The notes below the pieces were generated by a model, which had not been told where the DNA came from, made no database searches, and saw nothing but the letters and a program-made list of their open reading frames with translations. A program made the position numbers and the translations under genes. Shown here in pieces: positions 35,352 to 64,000 of a stretch of DNA of 64,000 bases. The stretch comes from Aromatoleum buckelii (GTDB taxonomy: Bacteria > Pseudomonadota > Gammaproteobacteria > Burkholderiales > Rhodocyclaceae), in contig NZ_WTVH02000010.1 in NCBI RefSeq assembly GCF_012910785.2, positions 1,302,001-1,366,000 on the forward strand, given 5' to 3'. How positions within the stretch are numbered: the stretch's first letter is position 1; each line of letters starts with the position of its first letter.

Positions 35352-35599
35352 CCGAGGTGATCGAATCGATTGCGACCCAGGTTTTGTCGTTCTCTTGAAT
35401 GGTTCAAGACATTTTTGAACTGACATCAAGCAGAGGCTTCGTCAGGCGGCAGAATGGGCCGAAAGACGCGAGGTCATGCCGGCCTCCGCATGAAGCTACG
35501 CGTGAATATGAATCTGTCGCCGCTCCGGACCCGGGTTGCCGGAGGAAGCAGGAATCATTCCCTTACACATAACGCAAACGTCCTTGCGTAAGCTCCAGA

Positions 35600-36164
35600 T
35601 ATTTCCAATTTGACGATACCGGATGTCGTCGCTTCGAGGGTCCGTGCCGCGACCGGGACTGTTCGGCCGACAGGCTGTTGCGTCGGAAGCACGACTGCGC
35701 GCTGCCCGGCGGCGACAACCTGCGGCCCCGCGTTGGGCCTCGGAGCCGCCCCGTGAAATCCGCTTCCCGATCCCTTCTCGCACCGGACAGAAGGCGCGGG
35801 CGGCGCGACAGCAGTGCGGGTCGGCACGTGACGTTGAACGGGGGGCGAGACCGCCGCGGGCGAGCCGTGTCATACTTTGAACGGCGCACCTCACGTCTGA
35901 CTGAATAAGTGGCGGCTGCTGAGCAGTCGCGTACCCGCCCCGAACTGGAAGCTGGGTTGCTGCCGGAACGCGACGAGCCGGAGACGGCCTCCATCTTCAG
36001 AACGCTCCGGCCGCCCGAGACCCCGACGCTCAACACAGCAATCCGGATGGCTGGCAGTGATGCTCGGCGGTTTTCTCGCGTGCAAGGGCGATCGCGAGCG
36101 CACCGTGAAGACGATCCGGACTGACCTTCAGTACGTCATGGACCTCACGGCAGGATTCAAATAA
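35600..36164 (+). pseudogene. Degenerate IS4-family transposase
   Basis: Fragments in shifting frames add up to an IS4-type transposase. LLRRKHDCALPGGDNLRP is followed in another frame by REIRFPIPSRTGQKARAARQ, then RHVTLNGGRDRRG. Near the end RTLRPPETPTLNTAIRM (to about 36050) shifts to MLGGFLACKGDRERTVKTIR and DLQYVMDLTAGFK, stopping at 36162-36164. The last part matches the conserved IS4 C-terminus GGFLxRKGDxEPGVKTIWxG. Several frameshifts and an internal deletion make it dead. The region 35352-35599 holds only a small hairpin (CTCCGG/CCGGAG, 35523-35544) and no gene I can support. Confidence 0.6.
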
Positions 36165-36341
36165 GCGGGACGATCACCACCCGAGTTGCGTGACGAAACG
36201 GTTTTAGGGGCGGAACTTTGTGAGAAGAGGGCGCCAACAATAGGACAAAGAGGGTGACGTGCCTCCAGCGGACTAAATAAACAGATTTTTCGCCACCACG
36301 GCTGGTGCTCGCCGTGACATAAGTATTCGGAGAAATCGACT

Positions 36342-37367
36342 ATGACTTTCTTTCCTGTCTTTCTGTCGGTTGTGTTTGTCGTGCGCAACCAAGGCTCCCA
36401 ATTAGAAGGGATCCTTAGAAATGCATCTTCACAGATATCTTCCTACGTCAGTGATTATGAGCTGATCATTGTCGATAACGCCTCTAATGATGATAGCGTC
36501 AAGGTTCTGAAGACGCTCACCGCCCCAAACGGCCTACCTAATCTTCAAATATATGCGCTTACAAAAGAGGTTGGCGGCGACACGGCGGCATGGGCCGGCC
36601 TTGAAAATGCCTTAGGCGATTTTGTTGTTGTCATCGATCCCCTTGTCGACGACATTGCCTTCCTGTCACAAATGCTCGATAAGGCGGTAAACGGGGCAGA
36701 TGTTGTTTTCGCCAACAATGAGCAGAAACCCCAACAAAGCTATGCCTATCGAGTGGCGGGCGGAGTTTTTAATTACATTTATAAGATATTTAACGGAATT
36801 CACCTTGCGAAGGATGCGCCGAGTTACAGGCTACTTAGCAAGCGCGTAATTAACTTCATCCTTCACCATCCGCAACCCTCGATAACCTATCGGCACTTAC
36901 CCGCAACGGGCGGATTTGCTCGTGTGAACATGGAATACAGCGCTACGCCAACTGCAGAAAATGTCAAAAAACTGGGAGAAAGCATCGATCGGGGGATGCG
37001 CCTTCTTGTTTCCACAACTCAAGCACCGATGCGAGTGGTTACCAGTCTGTCGTTGTTCGGGGCTGCAGCGAACTTGCTTTATTCGATCTACGTGGTAGCC
37101 GTTGGAATATTCAAGTCCGATGTCGCACCGGGCTGGGTAAGCATGTCACTCCAGCAGTCAGGAATGTTTTTCCTCATCTCGCTCGTGCTCTTGGTGCTCG
37201 GTGAGTACATCTTGCACATGGCCAGCTTGACAAATGAGGGTCCGCTTTACCACGTCGGTCAAGAGTTTACGAGCGCGCGCATGATCCGAAAAGAAAAACT
37301 GAACATTGAGGTTGTCACCTCTCAATCCGAGAGGGTCTCCAATATCTCTGAGCGAATCAATGCATGA
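36342..37367 (+). CDS. Membrane-anchored family-2 glycosyltransferase (GtrB-like)
   Basis: This 341-residue protein has a GT-A domain: LSVVFVVRNQGSQLEGILRN, YELIIVDNASNDDSVKVL and a DxD-like acidic patch (VVVIDPLVDD). Two C-terminal membrane helices follow (LFGAAANLLYSIYVVAVGIF and MFFLISLVLLVLGEYILHMA). This layout is that of GtrB/dolichyl-phosphate sugar synthases, which move a sugar from a nucleotide donor to a polyprenyl phosphate. It is the first gene of a seven-gene operon with markedly AT-rich codons. A GGAG site lies ten bases before the ATG, and its stop overlaps the next start by four bases. Confidence 0.82.
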   Translation: MTFFPVFLSVVFVVRNQGSQLEGILRNASSQISSYVSDYELIIVDNASNDDSVKVLKTLTAPNGLPNLQIYALTKEVGGDTAAWAGLENALGDFVVVIDPLVDDIAFLSQMLDKAVNGADVVFANNEQKPQQSYAYRVAGGVFNYIYKIFNGIHLAKDAPSYRLLSKRVINFILHHPQPSITYRHLPATGGFARVNMEYSATPTAENVKKLGESIDRGMRLLVSTTQAPMRVVTSLSLFGAAANLLYSIYVVAVGIFKSDVAPGWVSMSLQQSGMFFLISLVLLVLGEYILHMASLTNEGPLYHVGQEFTSARMIRKEKLNIEVVTSQSERVSNISERINA

Positions 37368-38503
37368 CCGGGAGTAATGATGTCGTAGATGCACTAATCA
37401 TCGGCGGCGGCTTCTACGGGGCGACCATAGCCATCTATTTGGCCAAGCAGCGCGGATTACGCCGAATCACCCTTGTTGAAAGAGAGCCCAAACTTCTCCG
37501 TCGCGCTTCATATCACAACCAGGCGCGTGTGCATAACGGCTATCACTACCCTCGAAGCTTCACCACCGCCTTTCGTAGTCGAGTCAACTTGCCGAAGTTC
37601 CTGCGTGACTGGCCGCAGGCAGTCACGCAGGATTTCATGAAACTCTATGCGATTGCAAAACGAAATTCAAAAGTGACTGCGAGGCAGTTTGAACGTTTTT
37701 GTCACGACATCGGGGCAAGGGTCAATCCAGCAGAAACAGGCTTAAAGAGACTGTTTGACCCCGGGCTGATCGAAGATGTATTTTTAGTCGAGGAATATGT
37801 ATTTGATGCGACGCGGCTCGCCCAATGGGCGGAAGAAGAGCTGCGTGACAACGGCGTTGTACTGCGGGTTTCAACTAGGGCAACGGCAATCTCACGATCA
37901 CTCAGAAATGAATTGCTTGTGACAGTTATGGATCAGAACGGGCATACGGAATCATTAAACTGCCGCTATGTTTTCAATTGCACCTATAGCGGACTTAATC
38001 AGTTTTTGGGTGAATTTCCCGGCACTCAGACCGGACTTAAGCAGGAAGTGACCGAGATGGCCTTAATGCGAATGCCGGAAGCACTTCAAGACGTTGGGGT
38101 TACGGTCATGGATGGTCCATTCTTTTCGATTATGCCGTTTCCCGCGCGCGACTTGCATACTCTTTCACACGTCCGTTATACGCCACACTTTAGCTGGAAG
38201 GACGAACCGGGGACCGACCCATACAGAAAGCTGAGCGAATACGACCGGGCAAGCCGGGCAGATCGTATGGTTAGAGACGTAGCGCGATACCTTCCCTCTG
38301 TTCTTGAGGCCAACTATATTGAATCACTCTTCGAGGTTAAAACTGTGCTAGTCAAGAACGAGGGAGACGATGGACGTCCTATCCTGTTCGAGAAGCATGC
38401 CGAGTTGCCTGGGTGCTATTCCATACTGGGCGGGAAAATCGACAACATATACGATGTTCTTGAAAAACTCGAAACTGAAGAGTTCAGGAGTACGTTGGAG
38501 TAA
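37364..38503 (+). CDS. FAD-dependent oxidoreductase (DAO fold) in a glycan operon
   Basis: This 379-residue protein has an N-terminal FAD-binding motif (DALIIGGGFYGATIAIYLAK) followed by ITLVEREPKLLRRASYHNQA and RVHNGYHYPRS, the loop next to the isoalloxazine in the D-amino-acid-oxidase superfamily. A C-terminal FAD segment (CYSILGGKIDNIYDVLEKLE) closes the fold. No membrane segment is seen. Such flavoproteins are unusual among sugar genes. It could oxidise a sugar hydroxyl or an amine in making the sugar donor, but the substrate is not predictable. It overlaps both neighbours by 1-4 bases. Confidence 0.8.
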   Translation: MTGSNDVVDALIIGGGFYGATIAIYLAKQRGLRRITLVEREPKLLRRASYHNQARVHNGYHYPRSFTTAFRSRVNLPKFLRDWPQAVTQDFMKLYAIAKRNSKVTARQFERFCHDIGARVNPAETGLKRLFDPGLIEDVFLVEEYVFDATRLAQWAEEELRDNGVVLRVSTRATAISRSLRNELLVTVMDQNGHTESLNCRYVFNCTYSGLNQFLGEFPGTQTGLKQEVTEMALMRMPEALQDVGVTVMDGPFFSIMPFPARDLHTLSHVRYTPHFSWKDEPGTDPYRKLSEYDRASRADRMVRDVARYLPSVLEANYIESLFEVKTVLVKNEGDDGRPILFEKHAELPGCYSILGGKIDNIYDVLEKLETEEFRSTLE

Positions 38504-39300
38504 TGATGGAAAACGCACTGATTGGATTTTCAGGTTTCGTGGGTAGCACCCTTCTCAAGCAAACCCGTTTTAATGCACTTTTCCGCTCGACCAACATCCA
38601 TGAAATTGATAACCGCGAGTTCGATCTCGTTGTTTGCGCGGGGGCCCCGGCGCAGAAGTGGATCGCCAATCGTAATCCTGGTGATGATCGGCAAAAGATA
38701 GATCGACTTGTCGAGCACCTGAAAACCATCCGGTGCAGGACGTTCATATTGATAAGCACGGTCGATGTTTTCAAGACACCAATCGGGGTAGACGAAGCGA
38801 CGCCAGTCGATGAGGCTGGCCTTCATCCCTACGGATTTCATCGGAGACTTCTCGAAAAGTTTGTCCAGGATAAAATTTCCGACCACCTGATTGTTCGTTT
38901 GCCAGGACTGGTCGGCCCGGGTTTACGCAAGAACGTGATCTTCGATTTTCATAACTCAAATAACGTTCACGCAATCGAGAGTCGAGGGATATTCCAATTT
39001 TACCCGATGGTGAATTTTTGGTACGACATCCAGACGGCTGTGCAGGAAAAACTTCGACTAGTACATCTTACTGCCGAACCCATCAGTGTTGCAGATGTCT
39101 CTCTTCGCGGTTTCGGAAGGCCTTTCACGCAAGTAATTGCGAATGAGCATCCTCATTACGATATGCAGACACGTTACGCCGAATATTTCGGGTCTCAAGG
39201 TCGGCATCAATATAGTGCGCGTGAAACAATCCAGGCGATTCGGGCATATGCTCAGTCGGAACCGGTTACTTTGAAGCCCGAGTCGGGAGCGGTGCCGTGA
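38503..39300 (+). CDS. NAD-dependent epimerase/reductase-like protein (SDR) with altered active site
   Basis: This 265-residue extended-SDR-like protein has a Rossmann motif IGFSGFVGSTLLKQT (G-x-x-G-x-x-G) and a catalytic-site strand FILISTVDVF. An unusual active site PYGFHRRLLEKFV has Arg where the Y-x-x-x-K lysine is normally found. RLPGLVGPGLRKNVI follows as in dTDP-sugar reductases. It is shorter than sugar epimerases (300 or more). It probably reduces or epimerises a nucleotide sugar in the same pathway as the neighbouring flavoprotein. The start ATG overlaps the preceding TAA by one base. Confidence 0.75.
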   Translation: MMENALIGFSGFVGSTLLKQTRFNALFRSTNIHEIDNREFDLVVCAGAPAQKWIANRNPGDDRQKIDRLVEHLKTIRCRTFILISTVDVFKTPIGVDEATPVDEAGLHPYGFHRRLLEKFVQDKISDHLIVRLPGLVGPGLRKNVIFDFHNSNNVHAIESRGIFQFYPMVNFWYDIQTAVQEKLRLVHLTAEPISVADVSLRGFGRPFTQVIANEHPHYDMQTRYAEYFGSQGRHQYSARETIQAIRAYAQSEPVTLKPESGAVP

Positions 39301-40130
39301 GGCTTGCCATATCGAACATCGCTTGGGACGTTTCAGAGAACGAAGATGTCGTAAAGCTGCTGAACAGATTTCATATCGATGCGATCGATATTGCTCCGGG
39401 CAAGTACTTTCCAGATCCCGGAAAGGCTACTGAGGCGGAAATAGTAACAGTGAAGCGCTGGTGGGCCGAGCGCGGGATCGAAATTACCGGGATGCAGGCA
39501 CTGCTGTTCGGGCGGGCCGGGCTGAACGTATTCGGCGCCCCTGAGGTTAAAGACGCCCTGCTCGAACATCTGGCGGCAGTTTGCCGTATTGCCGCGGGCC
39601 TTGGGGCTAGTCGATTAGTATTTGGGTCACCGAAAAACCGTGATCGTTCAGGCTTAAGCGATGAGCAGGCGCTAGACGAAGCAGTAGGCTTCTTCCAACG
39701 TTTGGGTGATGTTGCTCTGGCACAAGGGGTTGTTATGTGCTTGGAGCCTAACCCTCCGTGCTATGGAGCCAACTTCATGACGTCGAGTACGGAAACAGCT
39801 CACGTTGTTAATTCCGTTGGCCACGGAGCTATTCGTATGCAATTAGATACCGGAGCATTAACGATAAACCGAGAATCGGCTGAGGCTGTGCTGGCTGACA
39901 GCGCGCATCTCATAGGTCATGTCCATGCGAGTGAGCCAGACCTCGTTCCCCTCGGTGATTGTGGAACGGACCATCGACTGCTACATGAGGCACTGTTGAG
40001 GTACGTTCCACATCATGTGGTCTCTATCGAAATGGTGGCAACAAAAAACGAACCGCACCTTGCTTCCATCGAGCGAGCTCTTTCCCGCGCGGTTAAGTAT
40101 TACCGCTCGATACCTGGGGCCGCGGAATGA
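39297..40130 (+). CDS. Sugar phosphate isomerase/epimerase-like TIM-barrel protein
   Basis: This 277-residue protein belongs to the xylose-isomerase-like/AP-endonuclease-2 TIM-barrel superfamily. Metal-ligand candidates are MCLEPNPPCYGANFM (Glu), RMQLDTGALTI (Asp), HVHASEPDLVPLG (His/Glu) and VSIEMVATKN (Glu). It starts with GTG at 39297 inside the end of the previous gene. With the SDR and flavoprotein it would give a three-enzyme sugar-converting set. The exact sugar is unknown. Confidence 0.78.
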   Translation: MRLAISNIAWDVSENEDVVKLLNRFHIDAIDIAPGKYFPDPGKATEAEIVTVKRWWAERGIEITGMQALLFGRAGLNVFGAPEVKDALLEHLAAVCRIAAGLGASRLVFGSPKNRDRSGLSDEQALDEAVGFFQRLGDVALAQGVVMCLEPNPPCYGANFMTSSTETAHVVNSVGHGAIRMQLDTGALTINRESAEAVLADSAHLIGHVHASEPDLVPLGDCGTDHRLLHEALLRYVPHHVVSIEMVATKNEPHLASIERALSRAVKYYRSIPGAAE

Positions 40131-40483
40131 AGTGGCTCATCTTGATACTTGGTATCGCTGCCAACGCCTCCGCCAGCGTTCTGGTCAAGATCTCGATGAT
40201 CCCGCCTAGGAAGTTTCCGTCCCTTGCTGATCCACTGACAGCGCTTGTCAATTGGCCTTTTTGGCTTGGGCTGGGATTGTATGGGATGGCGTTTCTACTC
40301 TATGCCGCCGCACTCGCGCGATTGCCCTTGAACGTCGCACACCCGATTTTGACCTCCGGGGCGGTCGCCACTGTCGCACTATTTTCAATTTTCATTTTTC
40401 GTGAACCATTCCACTGGACAACAATCGCCGGCATATCGCTTGTAATTGCCGGGGTAGTCCTCATCACAGCGCGCGTTGCGTGA
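40127..40483 (+). CDS. SMR/EamA-like small transporter (lipid-linked sugar flippase candidate)
   Basis: This 118-residue protein has four hydrophobic helices: LILILGIAANASASVLVKIS, WPFWLGLGLYGMAFLLYAAA, VAHPILTSGAVATVALFSIF and TIAGISLVIAGVVLITARVA. The segment FLLYAAALARLPLNVAHPIL is like ArnE/ArnF and small multidrug resistance proteins. Between two polyprenyl-type glycosyltransferases, a role in flipping the lipid-linked sugar is the simplest inference. It overlaps both neighbours by four bases. Confidence 0.78.
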   Translation: MKWLILILGIAANASASVLVKISMIPPRKFPSLADPLTALVNWPFWLGLGLYGMAFLLYAAALARLPLNVAHPILTSGAVATVALFSIFIFREPFHWTTIAGISLVIAGVVLITARVA

Positions 40484-41301
40484 ATCAGATGAAAACAACC
40501 GAAAAAAAATGCCCGATAGACCGGGCGGAGTGGCAAGTTCCTGACATGGAGGCGCCGTTGTGGCAGGGAAAACAGCATCCGTACTGCGTTGTGATTCCTG
40601 TTATAAACGAAGGTGAGCGAATCGGGAATTTGCTCCAGCGTATGGAGGCAAACAGGATATCAGCAATAGCTGACATTATCATCGTCGATGGTGGGAGTAC
40701 AGACGGTTCGCTAGCGACTGAGGCGCTTAAACAGATGAACGTGCGAGGCCTTATCGTAAAGACAGCCCCTGGGAAGCTGAGCGCTCAGCTTAGGTGTGCT
40801 TATGCGTTTGCTCTTGACCAAGGTTATCAGGGAATCGTCACCATTGATGGAAATGACAAGGACGATCCTGAAGCTATACCGCGATTCATCGAAGCACTAA
40901 ACGAAGGAACCGATTTCGTGCAAGCGTCGCGGTTCCTTCCGGGTGGGATTGCGGAAAACACCCCGAAGTCTCGAGATTTTGCCATTCGGTACATTCATGC
41001 GCCCTGCCTTAGTCTTGCATCGGGATTTAAGTGGACAGATACGACACAGGGCTTCAGAGCTTATAGCCGGAAAATGTTGCTTGATCCGAGAATTGCACCA
41101 TTCAGGGATGTGTTCGTCACTTATGAACTGCTTGCTTATTTATCATGTCGTGCACCTCAATTAGGCTATGTATGTAAAGAATTGCCAACAATAAGACGGT
41201 ATCCGGTGGGTGAGGTGCCGACAAAAATCAGCGGTCTAAAAGGAAATTTTTCCGTGCTGGCGACCTTGCTGCGAGCTTGCGCAGGAAAATACAATGGTTA
41301 A
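40480..41301 (+). CDS. Family-2 glycosyltransferase (DPM1-like, soluble)
   Basis: This 273-residue GT-A protein shows YCVVIPVINEGERIGNLLQR, IIIVDGGSTDGS, the acceptor/donor loop KTAPGKLSAQLRCAYAFALD, and GIVTIDGNDKDDPEAIPRFI. It resembles dolichyl-phosphate mannosyltransferases without C-terminal membrane helices. The GTG at 40480 overlaps the transporter gene by four bases; an ATG at 40489 would remove three residues. A second polyprenyl-type synthase in the same operon suggests two lipid-linked donors or a disaccharide. Confidence 0.8.
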   Translation: MNQMKTTEKKCPIDRAEWQVPDMEAPLWQGKQHPYCVVIPVINEGERIGNLLQRMEANRISAIADIIIVDGGSTDGSLATEALKQMNVRGLIVKTAPGKLSAQLRCAYAFALDQGYQGIVTIDGNDKDDPEAIPRFIEALNEGTDFVQASRFLPGGIAENTPKSRDFAIRYIHAPCLSLASGFKWTDTTQGFRAYSRKMLLDPRIAPFRDVFVTYELLAYLSCRAPQLGYVCKELPTIRRYPVGEVPTKISGLKGNFSVLATLLRACAGKYNG

Positions 41302-43225
41302 GCAGATTAATAGGGGAAATGAAGAGGTTGTCACGGTGCAAGATCGGTTTTTGAACTACGCGATTTACGCACTGTTCTTTATTTTTGCCTTGCTGGGCTT
41401 CCGCTATCAAGCTTTGCTCCTAAGCTACAGAGAGTGGGGTGACGAATCCGAAACAATTGTTGCCGCCAAAATGATGGCAGCAGGGATGAGGCTCTATTCT
41501 GAGGTCTTCAATCATCATGGACCTCTAACATTTCTTCCGGGAATAATAGTCGAGAAAATTGGAAATTACGGGGTAAATGGGCATCGGGTCCCGATCGCCT
41601 TGCTTCAGATAATTGCCGTAATTTCAATATATAAAACACCGATAATAAGCACGACTGTGCGCAGAATTGTTGTTTCTGTTGCTGCTGCAACCATGATACT
41701 GGTATTCATGCCGGATTTGTTCGGGCATATGTACAAATACCAGACGATTGCCGGGCTTTTACTGGTGATAATATTGTCCCAGTATGCGCTCCCGGCGATT
41801 TTTAGCCCGGAAGTCTTGACTTCTTCCAGGGTTGCTTTCTGCAATGCTTTAATCGCATCTCTTCCGTTCTTGGCTGTAACTTACTTGCCAATTACAGTTC
41901 TACTGTTTTTTTGCTCTCTGAGGGCCAGATATTTCAGGTTTGCGGTTATCGGGAGTTTCTTGGGTCTTGCATTAAATTCTATTTTCCTTGGTGTTTATGG
42001 CTCGTTTCCTGGGTTCTTTGCTTTCCATATATACCTTAACGCTACAATTCTCCCTCTATATGTAGGTTTGCAGCCCGGTGGAGAGTTAATTATCAATGCA
42101 TTGAAAGTAGCTACATCGGATGTCGCGCACTTTTTTTCCTTGATAATTCTGTTCCTGAGCGCAGCTGTTCTGGCTGTGAAAGAGAAGGGTTTGCCGTGGA
42201 GAACGTTGCTGCTGGTGGCGGGGATCTGTAGCCTGCTCATGCGTGGCGCGGGTTTTCAGGGCATGCCGTATTTTTATTCTGTTTTTGCATTATTTATTCC
42301 TGCTTTTATCGGGATTGAGACGCTATTATCGCAATCAAAATACGTAGCGATGGGTTTTGTTTTGCTTTCAATTCTCAAGATATCCTTGCTCATTCCTGGG
42401 GATAAGCAGAAAATATTGTCGCAAACGATACCTAATGAAACGGAGTTTTCTCGGTTTGTCCAGGAGTTTACAACCAAAGACGACAGAATTATTGCCTTTT
42501 CATTTCAGAATTTCCAGTATTTAGCTTCTAATAGATTGCCTGCTTCTGGTCATTTCTTCTATCTTCCTTGGCAGGAAAAATACAATAAGAATCCAAAATT
42601 TGGCGTGGTTATTGATGCATGCGAGCAAATAAGAGAATCGAAACCAAAAGTCATGCTCATCGATAAATGGATGGTCTGGGATAGATATTCTTGGGATAGT
42701 TATGCTGGATGCGTGCAGGGCCTCGTTGATGATAATTACTTCCAGGTTCCGGGAAGGCCTTATTATGTTCGCAAAGATCTGGTTGATCGTTCGGAGGATT
42801 TTCTTAAAGATTATCCTGATAGGAAAATGATTCCCAGCTTGCCGCTCGACAAGGAGGATTCCATTAGCTTGAGGTTTTCCGAGGCTCCGCAAGGCCGTGA
42901 ATCTTATGGTAAGAAATTGGTGGGTCTGGGAGTCATGTTCGGGACGCACGTTCGTGTTAATCCAGGAACTGCAGGGCTATTGCTCAGACGGGCCAACGGC
43001 CCGGATTTGAAGCTTGACTTTTCTTTGCCTGAATTGGTGGACAATAGCTACAAAAAATTCGACCTTCCCGAAGATTCCTATGTTTCAGGAGAAATTGTTT
43101 CTCTGACGGGAGGTGGGATTAGTGTTTGGAGAAGCCATAGTGAAGATGGCGAAGTTTCTACTTGCCTGAAGTACTTCTATTCGGATGGAAGCCGGGGTTT
43201 TACACCCGGGTGTCCAGTGTTCTGA
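41294..43225 (+). CDS. Large GT-C-like membrane glycosyltransferase candidate
   Basis: This 643-residue protein has about ten hydrophobic helices in its first 380 residues and a soluble C-terminal half. After the first helix it reads REWGDESETIVAAKMMAAGM, then RLYSEVFNHHGPL. An acidic pair in the first periplasmic loop is the hallmark of GT-C transferases using polyprenyl-phosphate sugars. I do not recognise a named family. Its place at the end of the operon suggests it transfers the finished sugar to O-antigen, another glycan or a protein. Codons are the most AT-rich of the window. The IS5 element begins six bases after its stop. Confidence 0.7.
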   Translation: MVKQINRGNEEVVTVQDRFLNYAIYALFFIFALLGFRYQALLLSYREWGDESETIVAAKMMAAGMRLYSEVFNHHGPLTFLPGIIVEKIGNYGVNGHRVPIALLQIIAVISIYKTPIISTTVRRIVVSVAAATMILVFMPDLFGHMYKYQTIAGLLLVIILSQYALPAIFSPEVLTSSRVAFCNALIASLPFLAVTYLPITVLLFFCSLRARYFRFAVIGSFLGLALNSIFLGVYGSFPGFFAFHIYLNATILPLYVGLQPGGELIINALKVATSDVAHFFSLIILFLSAAVLAVKEKGLPWRTLLLVAGICSLLMRGAGFQGMPYFYSVFALFIPAFIGIETLLSQSKYVAMGFVLLSILKISLLIPGDKQKILSQTIPNETEFSRFVQEFTTKDDRIIAFSFQNFQYLASNRLPASGHFFYLPWQEKYNKNPKFGVVIDACEQIRESKPKVMLIDKWMVWDRYSWDSYAGCVQGLVDDNYFQVPGRPYYVRKDLVDRSEDFLKDYPDRKMIPSLPLDKEDSISLRFSEAPQGRESYGKKLVGLGVMFGTHVRVNPGTAGLLLRRANGPDLKLDFSLPELVDNSYKKFDLPEDSYVSGEIVSLTGGGISVWRSHSEDGEVSTCLKYFYSDGSRGFTPGCPVF

Positions 43226-43231
43226 GTCTAG

Positions 43232-44510
43232 GGCGCCTCGAAAAACCTCGACTCGCCCACCCTTGGTAAAATTACAGCGTCCTCAATCTCGCCACAGCCG
43301 ACATCGATGAAACCGCGCAGCGCCATCAAGACCGACCTGTTTGCCTTTGATGCCCACTGCAAGAAGATCGACACGCTGGGTGACCCGCTGGTCGAGATCG
43401 AATCGCATATCGATTTTCCCGCGCTGGCGGCCGAGGTCGATATGATTGCGCCGCGACTCGTGAGTGCGCAGGGCGGGCGCCCGCCATACCCGACCGAGAC
43501 GATGGTGCGCATCCTGGTGTTGAAGCGTCTGTACAACCTGTCCGATGAGCAGATGGAGTACCAGTTGCTCGACCGCATGAGCTACAAGCGCTTCTGCGGA
43601 CTGGCGAATGCGACGAACGTTCCGGATCGCACCACGGTGTGGACCTTCGAGAACCGGATTGGTGAAGCGGGGGCGAAGGCCTTGTTCGACGGGGTCTCGA
43701 CGCAGCTGCTCAAGAAGGGGTTCATCGCGCGCGGCGGTCAGATCATCGACGCGACGCTGGTGCCGGCGCCCAAGCAGCACAACCGCCGCGGCGAGAAGGA
43801 ACTGATCGAGCAAGGCGCAATGCCCGCCTCGTGGCGCCCGGCGAAGCGGCGCCAGAAGGATACTGAGGCGACCTGGACCAGGAAGCACGGCAAGAGCTAC
43901 TTCGGCTACAAGCTGTCGATCAACATCGACAAGAAGTACAAGATCATCCGCCGAATCGAGACCGATACTGCCAGCACGCACGACAGCCAGCACTTTGACA
44001 ACGTCTTCGACACGCGCAACACGAGCCGCGATGTCTATGCCGATCGGGGCTACCCGTCCGAGCAGCGTGAAGCCAGGCTCAAGGAGAACGGCTTTCGCAA
44101 CCAGATCCAGCGGAAGGGCAAGCGCAACAAGCCGCTGTCCGAGTGCCAGCAGCGACGCAACAAACGCATCGCCAAGACGCGTGCGCGGGTCGAGCACGTG
44201 TTCGGGGCCATCGAGCAGATGGGCGGCAAGCTGCTGCGCACCATCGGTCAGGCGCGGGCGAACTTTGCGATGACGATGATGGCTGCCTGCTACAACCTGA
44301 AGCGGCTGGTCTATTTCAGGAAGGCCGGAATCGAGGCCTTCTGACGCCCGAAATGGGCCGCATCGCCGATGTCCGAGGCGATTCGAGGCAAAAACTGAGC
44401 GACACCGCGGGAAGAAGCGGTGATTTGCCGAAGGAACTGAACCGAATTCGGTCGCGGTCATCGTGTCGCACCGGGGTTCATTGAAAACCTCGGGTTATTC
44501 GAGGTGCCCT
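43232..44510 (+). mobile_element. IS5-family insertion sequence with CTAG target duplications
   Basis: The element is about 1,279 bp, bounded by imperfect terminal inverted repeats. The left end reads GGCGCCTCGAAAAACC and the right end, read inward, AGGGCACCTCGAATAACC. CTAG occurs directly outside both ends (43228-43231 and 44511-44514), matching the YTAR target duplication of the IS5 group. One full transposase gene is inside. It is GC-rich, unlike the gene cluster it follows. Confidence 0.85.
43307..44344 (+). CDS. IS5-family transposase
   Basis: This 345-residue DDE transposase has an N-terminal DUF772-like region (RPPYPTETMVRILVLKRLYN, LSDEQMEYQLLDRMSYKRFC). The catalytic acids are in GQIIDATLVPAPKQHNRRGE (Asp), DVYADRGYPSEQREARLKEN (Asp) and RARVEHVFGAIEQMGGKLLR (Glu). 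The frame is open throughout and the element ends look intact, so it may still be active. It lies inside the element at 43232-44510. Confidence 0.92.
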   Translation: MKPRSAIKTDLFAFDAHCKKIDTLGDPLVEIESHIDFPALAAEVDMIAPRLVSAQGGRPPYPTETMVRILVLKRLYNLSDEQMEYQLLDRMSYKRFCGLANATNVPDRTTVWTFENRIGEAGAKALFDGVSTQLLKKGFIARGGQIIDATLVPAPKQHNRRGEKELIEQGAMPASWRPAKRRQKDTEATWTRKHGKSYFGYKLSINIDKKYKIIRRIETDTASTHDSQHFDNVFDTRNTSRDVYADRGYPSEQREARLKENGFRNQIQRKGKRNKPLSECQQRRNKRIAKTRARVEHVFGAIEQMGGKLLRTIGQARANFAMTMMAACYNLKRLVYFRKAGIEAF

Positions 44511-44647
44511 CTAGTAGCCGGCAATCGAATGGATTTGGACATGAGTTGCGCATGGGAAAAAATCGTTACCGTAGAGCTTCTCCGGGAAGGGATCAGGCAT
44601 CTTCATCAGCAAACGTTTGTTCTTCGCCCTCGGCGGCCCCGTCGGCC

Positions 44648-60692: not shown

Positions 60693-61052
60693 ATGAGCGT
60701 TGCCACCCTTCGCAAACCTGATGCGACGCAGGTCGTCACCAAGGCCCTGCTCAACGCCGGCAAGGAAATGGGGCTGACGCAGGCGGCGGTGGGCGTGGTC
60801 ATCGGCAAGGACCGGACCGCGATCAGCCGCAACGGCGTCGACCCCGACAGCAAGGCCGGAGAACTCGCGCTGCTGCTGATCCGGGCGTATCGCGCGCTGT
60901 TCGCGCTCGTCGGCGGCGACGCCGCGCAGATGAAGCACTGGATGCACACCGACAACCTCCACGTCGGCGGCATCCCGGCCGAGCAGATTCGCACCGTCCA
61001 GGGTTTGCTGCGCGTCGTCGAATACCTCGACGCGATCCGCGGCCGGCTGTGA
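60693..61052 (+). CDS. Xre/MbcA/ParS-type (DUF2384) antitoxin
   Basis: This 119-residue protein has a short HTH (MGLTQAAVGVVIGKDRTAIS) followed by the toxin-binding DUF2384 domain: LLLIRAYRALFALVGGDAAQ, MKHWMHTDNLHVGGIPAEQI and GLLRVVEYLDAIRGRL. The last segment fits into the RES toxin active site in known complexes. It overlaps the toxin gene by four bases and probably represses through the palindrome at 60615-60657. Confidence 0.88.
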   Translation: MSVATLRKPDATQVVTKALLNAGKEMGLTQAAVGVVIGKDRTAISRNGVDPDSKAGELALLLIRAYRALFALVGGDAAQMKHWMHTDNLHVGGIPAEQIRTVQGLLRVVEYLDAIRGRL

Positions 61053-61801
61053 CGGACATCTGGGCGGCGGTCGGTGCAGAGGCGCCGGTCGTCGAGCTCG
61101 CCGGCGACTTCGTGCGGCTCGTCGAGAGCCAGGAGCAGATCGCGACGAACCGCCTCGTCGATACGCTCGAGGAACAGGCGCTCCTCGAATCCCTGCTGGA
61201 AAGCTCGAAGCCCCCGCTGCCGCAAGCGGCCCGCGGCCTGCACTACCTGCTCGCGACCCCGTTCCGTTATCCGCCGCTGCGTCACGGCTCGCGTTTCGGC
61301 GGGCACTTCGAGCCGGGCCTGTTCTACGCGGCGTTCGACACGGCAACGGTGCTGGCCGAATCGGCCTATTACCGCTTCGTCTTCTGGCATGGCATGGCGG
61401 TCGCGCCGGCGTCGCCGCTGGCGTCCCAGCACACGCTGTTCGGCGCGCCGTGGCGCTGCGCCCGCGGCGTGCAACTGCAGTCCCCGCCGTTCGACCACTG
61501 GCGCGAGCAGCTCACCGACCGCGTGGATTACACCGCGACCCAGCGACTCGGCACGGCGATGCGGCAAGCCGGCGTCGAAGCTTTCGAATACGTCTCGGCG
61601 CGCGACCCCGCCGGCGGCCTCAACGTCGCGCTATTCACCCCGATGGCGCTGGCCGCCCGGCGGCCGGACTTCATGCAGGCGTGGCTCGCCGAGACGGATG
61701 CCGACGAGGTGCGCTTCTACTGCCAGGAAGAGCGGCTCGTGCATCGCTTCCCGCTCGGGCAGTTCCTCGTCGCGGGCGGGCTGCCGATGCCGGCGGTATA
61801 G
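61049..61801 (+). CDS. RES-domain toxin (NAD+-degrading family)
   Basis: This 250-residue protein contains the RES core: FRYPPLRHGSRFGGHFEPGL followed by FYAAFDTATVLAESAYYRF, giving the Arg, Tyr and Glu/Ser positions of the family. ARDPAGGLNVALFTPMALAA follows near the C-terminus. Known RES toxins deplete cellular NAD+. It starts with GTG overlapping its antitoxin and is intact. Its last 138 bases are repeated at 62491-62628. Confidence 0.88.
   Translation: MTDIWAAVGAEAPVVELAGDFVRLVESQEQIATNRLVDTLEEQALLESLLESSKPPLPQAARGLHYLLATPFRYPPLRHGSRFGGHFEPGLFYAAFDTATVLAESAYYRFVFWHGMAVAPASPLASQHTLFGAPWRCARGVQLQSPPFDHWREQLTDRVDYTATQRLGTAMRQAGVEAFEYVSARDPAGGLNVALFTPMALAARRPDFMQAWLAETDADEVRFYCQEERLVHRFPLGQFLVAGGLPMPAV
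61664..61801 (+). repeat. Direct repeat copy A (3' end of the RES gene)
   Basis: The last 138 bases of the RES gene, from CCGGACTTCATGCAGG to the TAG, recur at 62491-62628 with 12 mismatches (about 91% identity). The two copies bracket the YefM-YoeB-like pair. Confidence 0.85.
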
Positions 61802-62697: not shown

Positions 62698-63399
62698 TCA
62701 CACCAGACGTGGCTGCAACTCTGTATTTTCAGAGGCATTATTGACAGGCCCCGATGAAATAATGTCCATATATGCCTCTCGGTTTGCTGTGGCCTCGCGA
62801 ATAAGATTGTGTGCCTCAAGTGAGCGATAGAGCGCAACCGAATAGGCTTGGCAGTTGATCGACTTCTCGGGGTTGAATTCAATATCTGTAAATGCATCAT
62901 AATCGGACAACTGCTCTACCGCCCATTTGTTCTTATGAAGTGCATTAATATAGAGCCAATCATAGAAGGCAGTGCGCGGTTCTAGGGGCCAAGTTTCGCC
63001 AAAAAATTCGAAATACCTCAAAGAGCCTGATTCCCTAATTCTTGGATCTTTCTTTGCTGCCCTAGATGTCCCATATAGAAGATCTTTATAAGGTCCTCCA
63101 TTGGCAAACACCTTACTTGATTGATACGCCGTTTCAACGGTAAAAATTTTTTGCAGCTTTTGAGTTGTAACCTTGAGGTTGAACGCGCTGAGCGCGACAC
63201 CAAGCTCAACCTCAGATTTACTAGAAATTTCTAATGGACTACCACAGAGATGTTTGGCAACAGCGGCTTCGTGAAGTGATCGAATTGATTTCTGCTTTTG
63301 CATCACTGCCATGCCAGAATGCCAATTAAATTCGACGGATTCAGTTCGTACTAATATTTTTCCCGAGCTGTTTGGTATATAAACTGGGCGTTTAGCCAA
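62698..63399 (-). CDS. NADAR-domain partner of DarT (DarT1-associated antitoxin type)
   Basis: This protein of about 233 residues reads KRPVYIPNSSGKILVRTESV, EFNWHSGMAVMQKQKSIRSL, SSKVFANGGPYKDLLYGTSR, TAFYDWLYINALHKNKWAVE and YDAFTDIEFNPEKSINCQAY. These segments match the NADAR family found beside DarT1 toxins, which hydrolyses ADP-ribose from DNA and so acts as antitoxin. The start is uncertain: a TTG at 63399 has GGCGAGG eight bases before it and overlaps darT by eight bases, while an ATG at 63438 would add 13 residues. AT-rich codons mark it as imported. Confidence 0.78.
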   Translation of the reverse strand: MAKRPVYIPNSSGKILVRTESVEFNWHSGMAVMQKQKSIRSLHEAAVAKHLCGSPLEISSKSEVELGVALSAFNLKVTTQKLQKIFTVETAYQSSKVFANGGPYKDLLYGTSRAAKKDPRIRESGSLRYFEFFGETWPLEPRTAFYDWLYINALHKNKWAVEQLSDYDAFTDIEFNPEKSINCQAYSVALYRSLEAHNLIREATANREAYMDIISSGPVNNASENTELQPRLV

Positions 63400-64000
63400 T
63401 TTGAGTACCTCGCCAATATACGTAATCCATTCGAGCATCGAAATACGACTTATCGTAGCAGAATTCCTTGCCGCCAACACAATCGTGTACGATTTTGGAC
63501 AACCGTTTGTGATCCCGGATACGTTCCTTTTGATCCACTAGCACGTCCAAAATCATGTCCGGCTCAATTTTGTCCATAATTAGAACCTCAGCCTGAGGGT
63601 GCGTGGGGTAGAAATCAGGTATCCGTAGCTCTGAGCGTGGCGGCGCGGTGTCGATATCCGAAAACAAACGCTGAAGCGCATCCAACCCAATACGTTGTTG
63701 TAGAGGAGTCTGCGCCACCGCTCGTGTTGCGGCGTTCTCGACACAAAAGACGCAGTTCTTTTCCCAGAGCACTTGTGGTTTTACACGCAAGACCACCCAA
63801 TCTGTACCAGGATTTTCTTGACGAAGCCGATAGAACATTTTGTAGTTCGGGAAAGATATGGAACAACAAATGGCATCAGGCAAATAATCAAACCTGTAGT
63901 AGTCGTTGACGGCCGTTTGAATACCTGCTGTTTTCAATGAGTTGCGTCCATATAGCCCATGCTGAAGAATTGAGGGTAAGTTCTCAGCGCGAGTAAAGTG
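63392..64000 (-). CDS. darT: DarT-like ssDNA ADP-ribosyltransferase toxin (5' end outside window)
   Basis: The frame is open to the window edge and gives 202 residues: HFTRAENLPSILQHGLYGRN, SLKTAGIQTAVNDYYRFDYL, CCSISFPNYKMFYRLRQENP, LWEKNCVFCVENAATRAVA, DFYPTHPQAEVLIMDKIEPD. The HFT...N..SIL..GL start, the FPNYKM block and the PQAEVL Glu are DarT (DUF4433) hallmarks. DarT uses NAD+ to modify thymidine in single-stranded DNA and protects against phage. A start at 63937 would cut off the conserved N-terminus, so the true start lies beyond 64000. Confidence 0.82.
   Translation of the reverse strand, partial: HFTRAENLPSILQHGLYGRNSLKTAGIQTAVNDYYRFDYLPDAICCSISFPNYKMFYRLRQENPGTDWVVLRVKPQVLWEKNCVFCVENAATRAVAQTPLQQRIGLDALQRLFSDIDTAPPRSELRIPDFYPTHPQAEVLIMDKIEPDMILDVLVDQKERIRDHKRLSKIVHDCVGGKEFCYDKSYFDARMDYVYWRGTQIG

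Follow-up and report, generated by a model that had tools for sequence, protein, structure and literature searches.

Three-component Gtr systems, which glucosylate O antigens with GtrA, GtrB and a serotype-specific Gtr, combine a polyprenyl-phosphate glycosyltransferase of family 2 (GT2) with a small flippase and a polytopic transferase that varies, and ArnC, ArnE–ArnF and ArnT follow a related logic in the modification of lipid A. In other systems the sugar is remodelled while it is attached to the carrier lipid: mycobacterial DprE1 and DprE2, which work with the small flippase Rv3789 and GT-C arabinosyltransferases, epimerize a lipid-linked sugar by oxidation and reduction, and epimerization of lipid-linked pentofuranoses before GT-C transfer, by other enzymes, has been published for Citrobacter youngae (Kelly et al., PMC11127046). 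The authors of that paper wrote that they were unaware of epimerases in O-polysaccharide side-chain systems beyond their own and those of the DprE1/E2 type (PMC11127046). Here we analyse a 64,000-nucleotide stretch of the Aromatoleum buckelii genome (contig NZ_WTVH02000010.1, positions 1,302,001 to 1,366,000; hereafter, the window) that holds a seven-gene operon, for which an earlier reading of the sequence (the original prediction) had proposed a Gtr-like glycan modifier that builds its own unusual sugar. Six of the seven genes form a recurrent module, shared in similar order by many unrelated bacteria, and are not one odd operon. We reasoned that the operon encodes a mobile extracytoplasmic glycosylation cassette whose donor sugar is remodelled, probably while on the carrier lipid, a reading to which we give an even chance of being right.

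A seven-gene operon of Gtr-like design

Seven overlapping open reading frames (ORFs), all on the + strand, span 36342–43225 at the coordinates given in the original prediction, and their junctions, from gene 1 to gene 7 in order, overlap by 4, 1, 4, 4, 4 and 8 bases. The ORF coordinates and the Pfam matches bear out the order, the families and the overlaps of 1–8 bases that had been proposed, with gene 7 having no Pfam match. The features are as follows (FAD, flavin adenine dinucleotide; SDR, short-chain dehydrogenase/reductase; CBM, carbohydrate-binding module).

36342..37367, + strand: gene 1, GtrB/ArnC-like protein, 341 amino acids, two C-terminal transmembrane helices (Pfam Glycos_transf_2; phrog_841 GtrB-like, 8e-32)
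37364..38503, + strand: gene 2, FAD oxidoreductase, 379 amino acids (Pfam DAO, 3e-21)
38503..39300, + strand: gene 3, extended-SDR reductase, 265 amino acids (Pfam Epimerase/SDR, just below the cut-off)
39297..40130, + strand: gene 4, ketose-3-epimerase-like TIM barrel, 277 amino acids (Pfam AP_endonuc_2)
40127..40483, + strand: gene 5, SMR/EamA-type protein with four transmembrane segments, probable lipid-sugar flippase (Pfam EamA/SMR/TMEM234)
40480..41301, + strand: gene 6, GT2 protein without transmembrane helices, 273 amino acids, probable working polyprenyl-phosphate sugar transferase (Pfam Glycos_transf_2)
41294..43225, + strand: gene 7, polytopic protein, 643 amino acids, probable GT-C transferase (sequence motifs, hydrophobic segments)
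42824..43189, + strand: C-terminal beta-sandwich of gene 7, CBM-like, residues 511–632

The core genes recur together

The original prediction had suggested a genome-neighbourhood search for the gene set. Using the gene 2 protein as the sole bait, we found at least 466 relatives of the FAD enzyme in genome contigs; the best 80 loci were kept, and the full set was checked in these 80. All six core genes (1–6) occur in 61 of the 80 loci and five of them (SMR left out) in 68, with the gene-1 type present in 79, the SDR in 72, the TIM barrel in 71, the SMR protein in 63 and the gene-6 type in 69. Because no gene other than gene 2 was used in the fetch, this co-occurrence indicates that the arrangement is not a matter of chance. 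More rows share the gene order of the window than any other order (55 of the 99 compared), and three more rows, the window among them, extend into a gene-7 relative; four alphaproteobacterial sets read SDR, TIM barrel, gene 1, FAD, GtrA and gene 6. The five core genes are present even in two loci titled Anaerolineae and Roseilinea (L069 and L071), which we take to be Chloroflexota and in which the FAD protein is 70% identical. Azotobacter chroococcum DSM 2286 is among the strains that carry the cassette (L048 and L056).

Genes 1 and 2 adjoin. Gene 1 lies directly 5′ of gene 2, with a gap or overlap of less than 100 bases, in 70 of the 80 loci; in nine more the called ORFs overlap by 190–778 bases, and in the last (L067) the contig begins near gene 2. 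The pair also persists in five loci (L035, L043, L045, L047 and L053) in which it is followed by another GT2 protein, an aldo/keto reductase and GtrA, so that SDR, TIM barrel, SMR protein and gene 6 are all replaced. The replacement GT2 has a DLD motif in L047, the locus for which the assignment comes from Pfam; the other four were assigned by similarity. Genes 1 and 6 are fused in-frame into a single 592-amino-acid ORF on the Psychrobacter plasmid pA22P4 (L013, 5410–7188), and on a Cereibacter plasmid gene 6 is fused with a ten-segment membrane protein. One Pseudomonas genome holds two SDR–TIM–SMR–GT2 copies flanking a single GtrB-like/FAD pair (L099, 3465–14381).

Two GT2-type proteins with different motifs

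Gene 1 matches the sll0501/GtrB (7e-24) and ArnC (3e-23) profiles over nearly its full length, and retains a GtrB-type fold match and its C-terminal transmembrane helices. In place of the DADLQ of GtrB and ArnC it has D99-P-L-V-D-D (36636–36653; family pattern D-P-L-x-D-D), and Asp stands at both aligned DxD positions in none of 88 relatives. The N-terminal ‘NE’ motif reads N-Q in this family (Q in 72 of 88), D99, D103 and D104 are kept in 76, 81 and 79 of 88, and the D-P-L-x-D-D site is gone from four alphaproteobacterial counterparts. Gene 6 carries P-V-x-NEG, DGGS and D123-G-N-x-K-D; N and E are kept in 78 and 79 of 79 relatives and D-G-N-x-K-D in 77 of 79, and the nearest structure by sequence is DPM synthase 5mlz (3e-13).

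Because gene 1 and its relatives lack DxD (88 of 88) and gene 6 keeps NE and DGN, we infer that gene 6 is probably the working polyprenyl-phosphate sugar transferase and that gene 1 may be a membrane-anchored pseudo-transferase, acting as its partner or platform. The DGN of gene 6, however, itself departs from the textbook DxD, and the conserved D99, D103 and D104 of gene 1 might serve a changed site. The original prediction had treated the second polyprenyl-type transferase as the addition to a classical set. Two GT2 proteins are indeed present, but the roles may be reversed, with gene 6 active and gene 1 the changed partner without DADLQ.

A redox trio

The enzymes between the two GT2 proteins are those that would give the cassette its own sugar. 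Gene 2 contains the motif RAS-x2-NQARVH-x-GYHYPR, and among solved structures its sequence comes closest to glycerol-3-phosphate oxidase 4x9m (4e-9), a secondary-alcohol oxidase, with the N-x4-H-x-G region aligned. In gene 3, S85, Y110 and R114 correspond to a Ser, Tyr and Arg that are invariant in 87 of 87 sequences; the classical SDR Tyr-x3-Lys pair is absent and Y110-x3-R114 stands in its place (YxxxR in 87 of 87), as had been predicted when Arg was noted for the active-site Lys. The nearest relative by sequence is RmlD (8g22, 2e-5), the predicted model (predicted local distance difference test, pLDDT, 86) has an RmlD-type first fold match (1vl0, TM-score 0.65), and the fold neighbours are RmlD, GalE and GDP-mannose dehydratase; RmlD, closest by both measures, is a 4-keto reductase. 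Gene 4 is nearest to ketose 3-epimerases (L-ribulose 3-epimerase 3vyl, 2.5e-14), with further matches to the 3-keto-D-glucoside 4-epimerase 6wn6 (2e-6) and IolI. Its E150, D184, H210 and E245 are invariant in 85 of 85 sequences and make up the Glu/Asp/His/Glu set of the metal site; we take them to be metal ligands by assignment from D-tagatose 3-epimerase.

Judged from these family assignments, genes 2, 4 and 3 together fit a scheme in which a hydroxyl is oxidized to a ketone, a proton is exchanged at the neighbouring position and the ketone is reduced; we propose this sequence of steps from the analogy with ketose 3-epimerases and with DprE1/E2. Because gene 2 would make a ketone that needs a reductase, an aldo/keto reductase in place of SDR and barrel is what would be expected in the five variant loci.

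A small flippase and an exchangeable polytopic partner

Gene 5 has no GtrA (PF04138) match in the Pfam scan, which returns EamA/SMR/TMEM234 instead; it matches ArnF at 6e-7, but the score of 30 bits falls far short of the cut-off, 99. GtrA replaces the SMR-type flippase in five alphaproteobacterial sets and is also found in the aldo/keto-reductase variants.

Gene 7 has nine hydrophobic segments and, near its N terminus, the stretches DESET and FNHHGPLTFL, identical in all four aligned relatives; an acidic pair such as that in DESET is seen in many GT-C enzymes. Its AlphaFold model has a pLDDT of 52.7 and is of low confidence in the membrane part, the C-terminal beta-sandwich being the exception. 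By structure the sandwich matches AftD and CBM29 alongside sandwiches unrelated to them, and the domain is missing from the relative in L068. Relatives of gene 7 occur in only 3 of the 80 loci (L028, L068 and L085). Using a criterion of at least 400 amino acids and at least six hydrophobic segments, we found a same-strand polytopic ORF in the module or within 3 kb of it in 62 of the 68 five-core loci, after the module in 43, inside it in 14 and before it in 9; some loci have more than one position occupied, and several hold two or more such proteins. The congener Azoarcus sp. Aa7 (L021) keeps the six core genes (76% identity for the FAD protein, 74% for the SDR) and has in seventh place a different protein, matching GtrII (PF14264, 6e-8). 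Gene 7, probably a GT-C-like transferase, is swapped between loci in the manner of gtrC. The seven genes had originally been taken as a set; genes 1–6 are conserved as such, whereas gene 7 is exchanged. The broader claim, Gtr-like logic supplemented by dedicated redox and isomerase enzymes, agrees with the combination of polyprenyl-phosphate GT2, small flippase and variable GT-C-like protein.

A proposed pathway and its alternatives

In the pathway that we infer, gene 6 would load polyprenyl (undecaprenyl) phosphate with a sugar taken from a nucleotide donor, assisted by gene 1 as an anchored, GtrB-like platform that has lost the donor/metal motif. Gene 2 would then oxidize a secondary hydroxyl of the sugar to a ketone, gene 4 would invert the neighbouring carbon or shift the ketone through an enediolate, and gene 3 would reduce the ketone. 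The lipid-linked sugar would be flipped by gene 5 and attached by gene 7 to an outer acceptor, for which O-antigen or some other glycan of the surface is the likeliest candidate. We place the oxidation at the membrane, on a lipid-linked sugar, because genes 1 and 2 adjoin and stay paired when SDR and barrel are replaced.

The same trio could instead work in the cytoplasm, with genes 2–4 making a rare sugar in nucleotide-linked form (or as a sugar phosphate) that the GT2 proteins load onto lipid once it is finished. The fold neighbours of the SDR use nucleotide sugars, and the viral contigs L102, L103 and L104 carry distant FAD–SDR–TIM trios without recognized relatives of genes 1, 5 or 6. These trios weigh against oxidation of a lipid-linked sugar at the membrane. 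A cytoplasmic route nevertheless accounts poorly for the adjacency of genes 1 and 2 in the fetched beta- and gammaproteobacterial sets and in the five loci with replaced SDR and barrel, which ties the oxidation to a membrane protein. Moreover, the Pfam matches of the seven genes include no nucleotidyltransferase and, to our knowledge, few FAD oxidases act on nucleotide sugars. We regard this route as unlikely, if a serious contender.

The conserved D99, D103 and D104 could also mean that the site of gene 1 was rewritten rather than decayed. Gene 1 would then still be an active GtrB-type synthase, and genes 1 and 6 would make two lipid-linked sugars for a disaccharide branch or for two modifications, for which the loci with two or more polytopic proteins would be suited. 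That DxD is found at the aligned position in none of the 88 relatives, that the site is gone from the four alphaproteobacterial counterparts and that genes 1 and 6 occur as a natural fusion, which points to a single complex, all make this a rather doubtful proposition. An unrelated catabolic or detoxification operon, with transferases and a transporter that handle a small molecule instead of a surface glycan, strikes us as very improbable: DAO oxidases and AP_endonuc_2 barrels are frequent in sugar catabolism and SMR proteins also export small cations, but two polyprenyl-type GT2 proteins occur in 68 of the 80 loci with a polytopic protein nearby in 62 of those 68, the loci lie in polysaccharide and prophage settings, and the flippase is exchanged between GtrA and SMR types.

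Mobile settings and acquisition

The module is found on several kinds of mobile DNA. In IMGVR_UViG_2903814385_000001 (L101, 1085–15384) the six genes lie inside a contractile-tail prophage, flanked by genes for tail sheath, tape measure, a tail protein and a CI-like repressor; a position beside tail genes and repressor is of the kind known for phage gtr genes. Seven of the eight plasmid records opened (Azospirillum, Sagittula, Cereibacter, Roseobacter, Sphingomonas, Psychrobacter and Ruegeria) hold such a set, the eighth, from Mesorhizobium (L015), having a distant FAD–SDR pair with no transferase of this kind recognized beside it; in the 10.8-kb pA22P4 the set is plasmid cargo. The L021 module sits among glycosyltransferases and epimerases, in a polysaccharide locus.

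Acquisition of the window operon by transfer is supported by its base composition and by the slot that it occupies. Per-kilobase G+C is 44–53% at 36–43 kb, compared with 64–72% over 25–36 kb and 59–71% over 44–62 kb, and the seven genes have 44–54% G+C with 46–61% at third codon positions, against 83–89% at those positions in five neighbouring native genes, in keeping with the AT-rich codons originally reported. The surroundings are as follows.

35352..44647, no strand: insert between an M14-peptidase-like gene and serB (congener comparison)
43231..44509, + strand: insertion sequence (IS) element with a DDE transposase at 43307–44344, outside the module

The M14-like gene is found in 17 of 17 genomes of the genus, and in 12 of 16 congeners serB follows it within about 1 kb, so that the slot is short and empty. 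The distance to serB is 3.6–8.3 kb in three close relatives, where part of the intervening sequence is low in G+C, and one congener has no serB within the 9.5 kb fetched past the M14-like gene; tblastn placed none of the seven proteins in the slots of these four congeners nor in the 1-kb case G007. Given the 12 short slots and these null results, the operon occupies this slot in 0 of 16 congeners, and the SDR was found in only one of them, Azoarcus sp. Aa7, elsewhere in the genome. The original prediction had inferred acquisition partly from flanking transposases. An intact IS is present on the right, but the left transposase could not be confirmed, and the right-hand IS has seven full-length copies in the genome at 100% listed identity, this one included; it is therefore a resident element and does not itself show import.

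The M14-like/serB slot (35352–44647) varies within the genus, and three close relatives carry other sequence there. Elsewhere in the window, two possible toxin–antitoxin genes were assigned by eye from motifs, a presumed RES-domain-like protein at 61049–61801 and, at the low-G+C window end (62698–64000), what we take to be a DarT-like protein.

Significance and comparison with known systems

If the proposed pathway is correct, it adds another side-chain epimerization system, one that works on a GT2 product with unrelated enzymes and that perhaps occurs in hundreds of genomes, given at least 466 FAD relatives and a set checked in the best 80 loci. It would predict unusual sugars in surface coats yet to be analysed, would account for part of the variation in surfaces and phage receptors, and would supply marker families (the NQARVH-GYHYPR FAD enzyme and the YxxxR SDR) by which genomes could be searched for such glycans. 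It would also add to the examples of glycosyltransferases that have taken on the role of a partner without catalysis. Put at its broadest, the reading would be of a widespread pathway, as yet undescribed, in which a GT2 loads a sugar onto polyprenyl phosphate and the sugar is then rebuilt there: the FAD enzyme would oxidize it, the barrel would epimerize it or shift the ketone, and either the YxxxR SDR or an aldo/keto reductase would reduce it, with a GtrB-derived pseudo-glycosyltransferase as the membrane platform. Prophages, plasmids and islands would spread the pathway as an exchangeable cassette for the surface coat; we advance this tentatively, rating its chances somewhat below even.

The original prediction knew of no described system with this set. 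We found no description of the enzyme set in open-licence literature, but the principle of lipid-linked epimerization followed by GT-C transfer is published (PMC11127046). The Citrobacter O1/O2 system resembles the cassette, as we propose it to work, in its lipid-linked donor, auxiliary epimerase (in O2) and GT-C enzyme with a C-terminal CBM-like domain, there at residues 503–652 (Kelly et al., PMC11127046). It differs in its starting point, phosphoribosyl pyrophosphate (PRPP), on which a polyprenyl phosphoribose synthase and a phosphatase act, in its MATE flippase and in its single SDR epimerase, whereas the cassette has the proposed GT2 loading and the FAD/TIM/SDR trio; neither the synthase/phosphatase families of that GT136-type system nor a MATE flippase is among the Pfam matches of the seven proteins.

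With DprE1/DprE2, Rv3789 and the arabinosyltransferases, the cassette shares a predicted oxidase and reductase, a small flippase, a probable GT-C protein and, on our proposal, epimerization of a lipid-linked sugar by oxidation and reduction. Gene 2 is of the DAO family, unlike DprE1, a VAO-type flavoprotein, and none of its nine listed Pfam matches is a VAO-type FAD-binding family; the cassette also has no phosphoribose synthase (the seven proteins match no UbiA-like family of the kind that makes the donor from PRPP) and has an additional ketose-epimerase barrel. That barrel resembles ketose 3-epimerases and 6wn6 in its fold, its metal-binding E/D/H/E set and its predicted chemistry beside a ketone, and differs from them in forming its own subfamily. 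To the Arn system the likeness lies in an ArnC-like GT2 fold, an SMR-type flippase and the logic of GT-C transfer, and the difference in ArnF/ArnE matches far under cut-off and in the absence of enzymes forming 4-amino-4-deoxy-L-arabinose among the seven genes. The Gtr systems are close in component logic, in their occurrence in prophage (as in L101) and, for the alphaproteobacterial version of the cassette, in GtrA itself. Unlike them, the cassette has a GtrB-like protein without DxD, an extra soluble GT2, an FAD enzyme, an SDR and a TIM-barrel epimerase, and in the window its flippase is of SMR type; of the features that define GtrB, gene 1 has the fold and the C-terminal transmembrane helices but no DxD, and gene 6 keeps other GT2 motifs but has no transmembrane helix. 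Taken together, the general scheme, Gtr/Arn logic with redox chemistry of the DprE1/E2 kind, is a known one, and the enzymes, as their sequences present them, differ from those of each known system.

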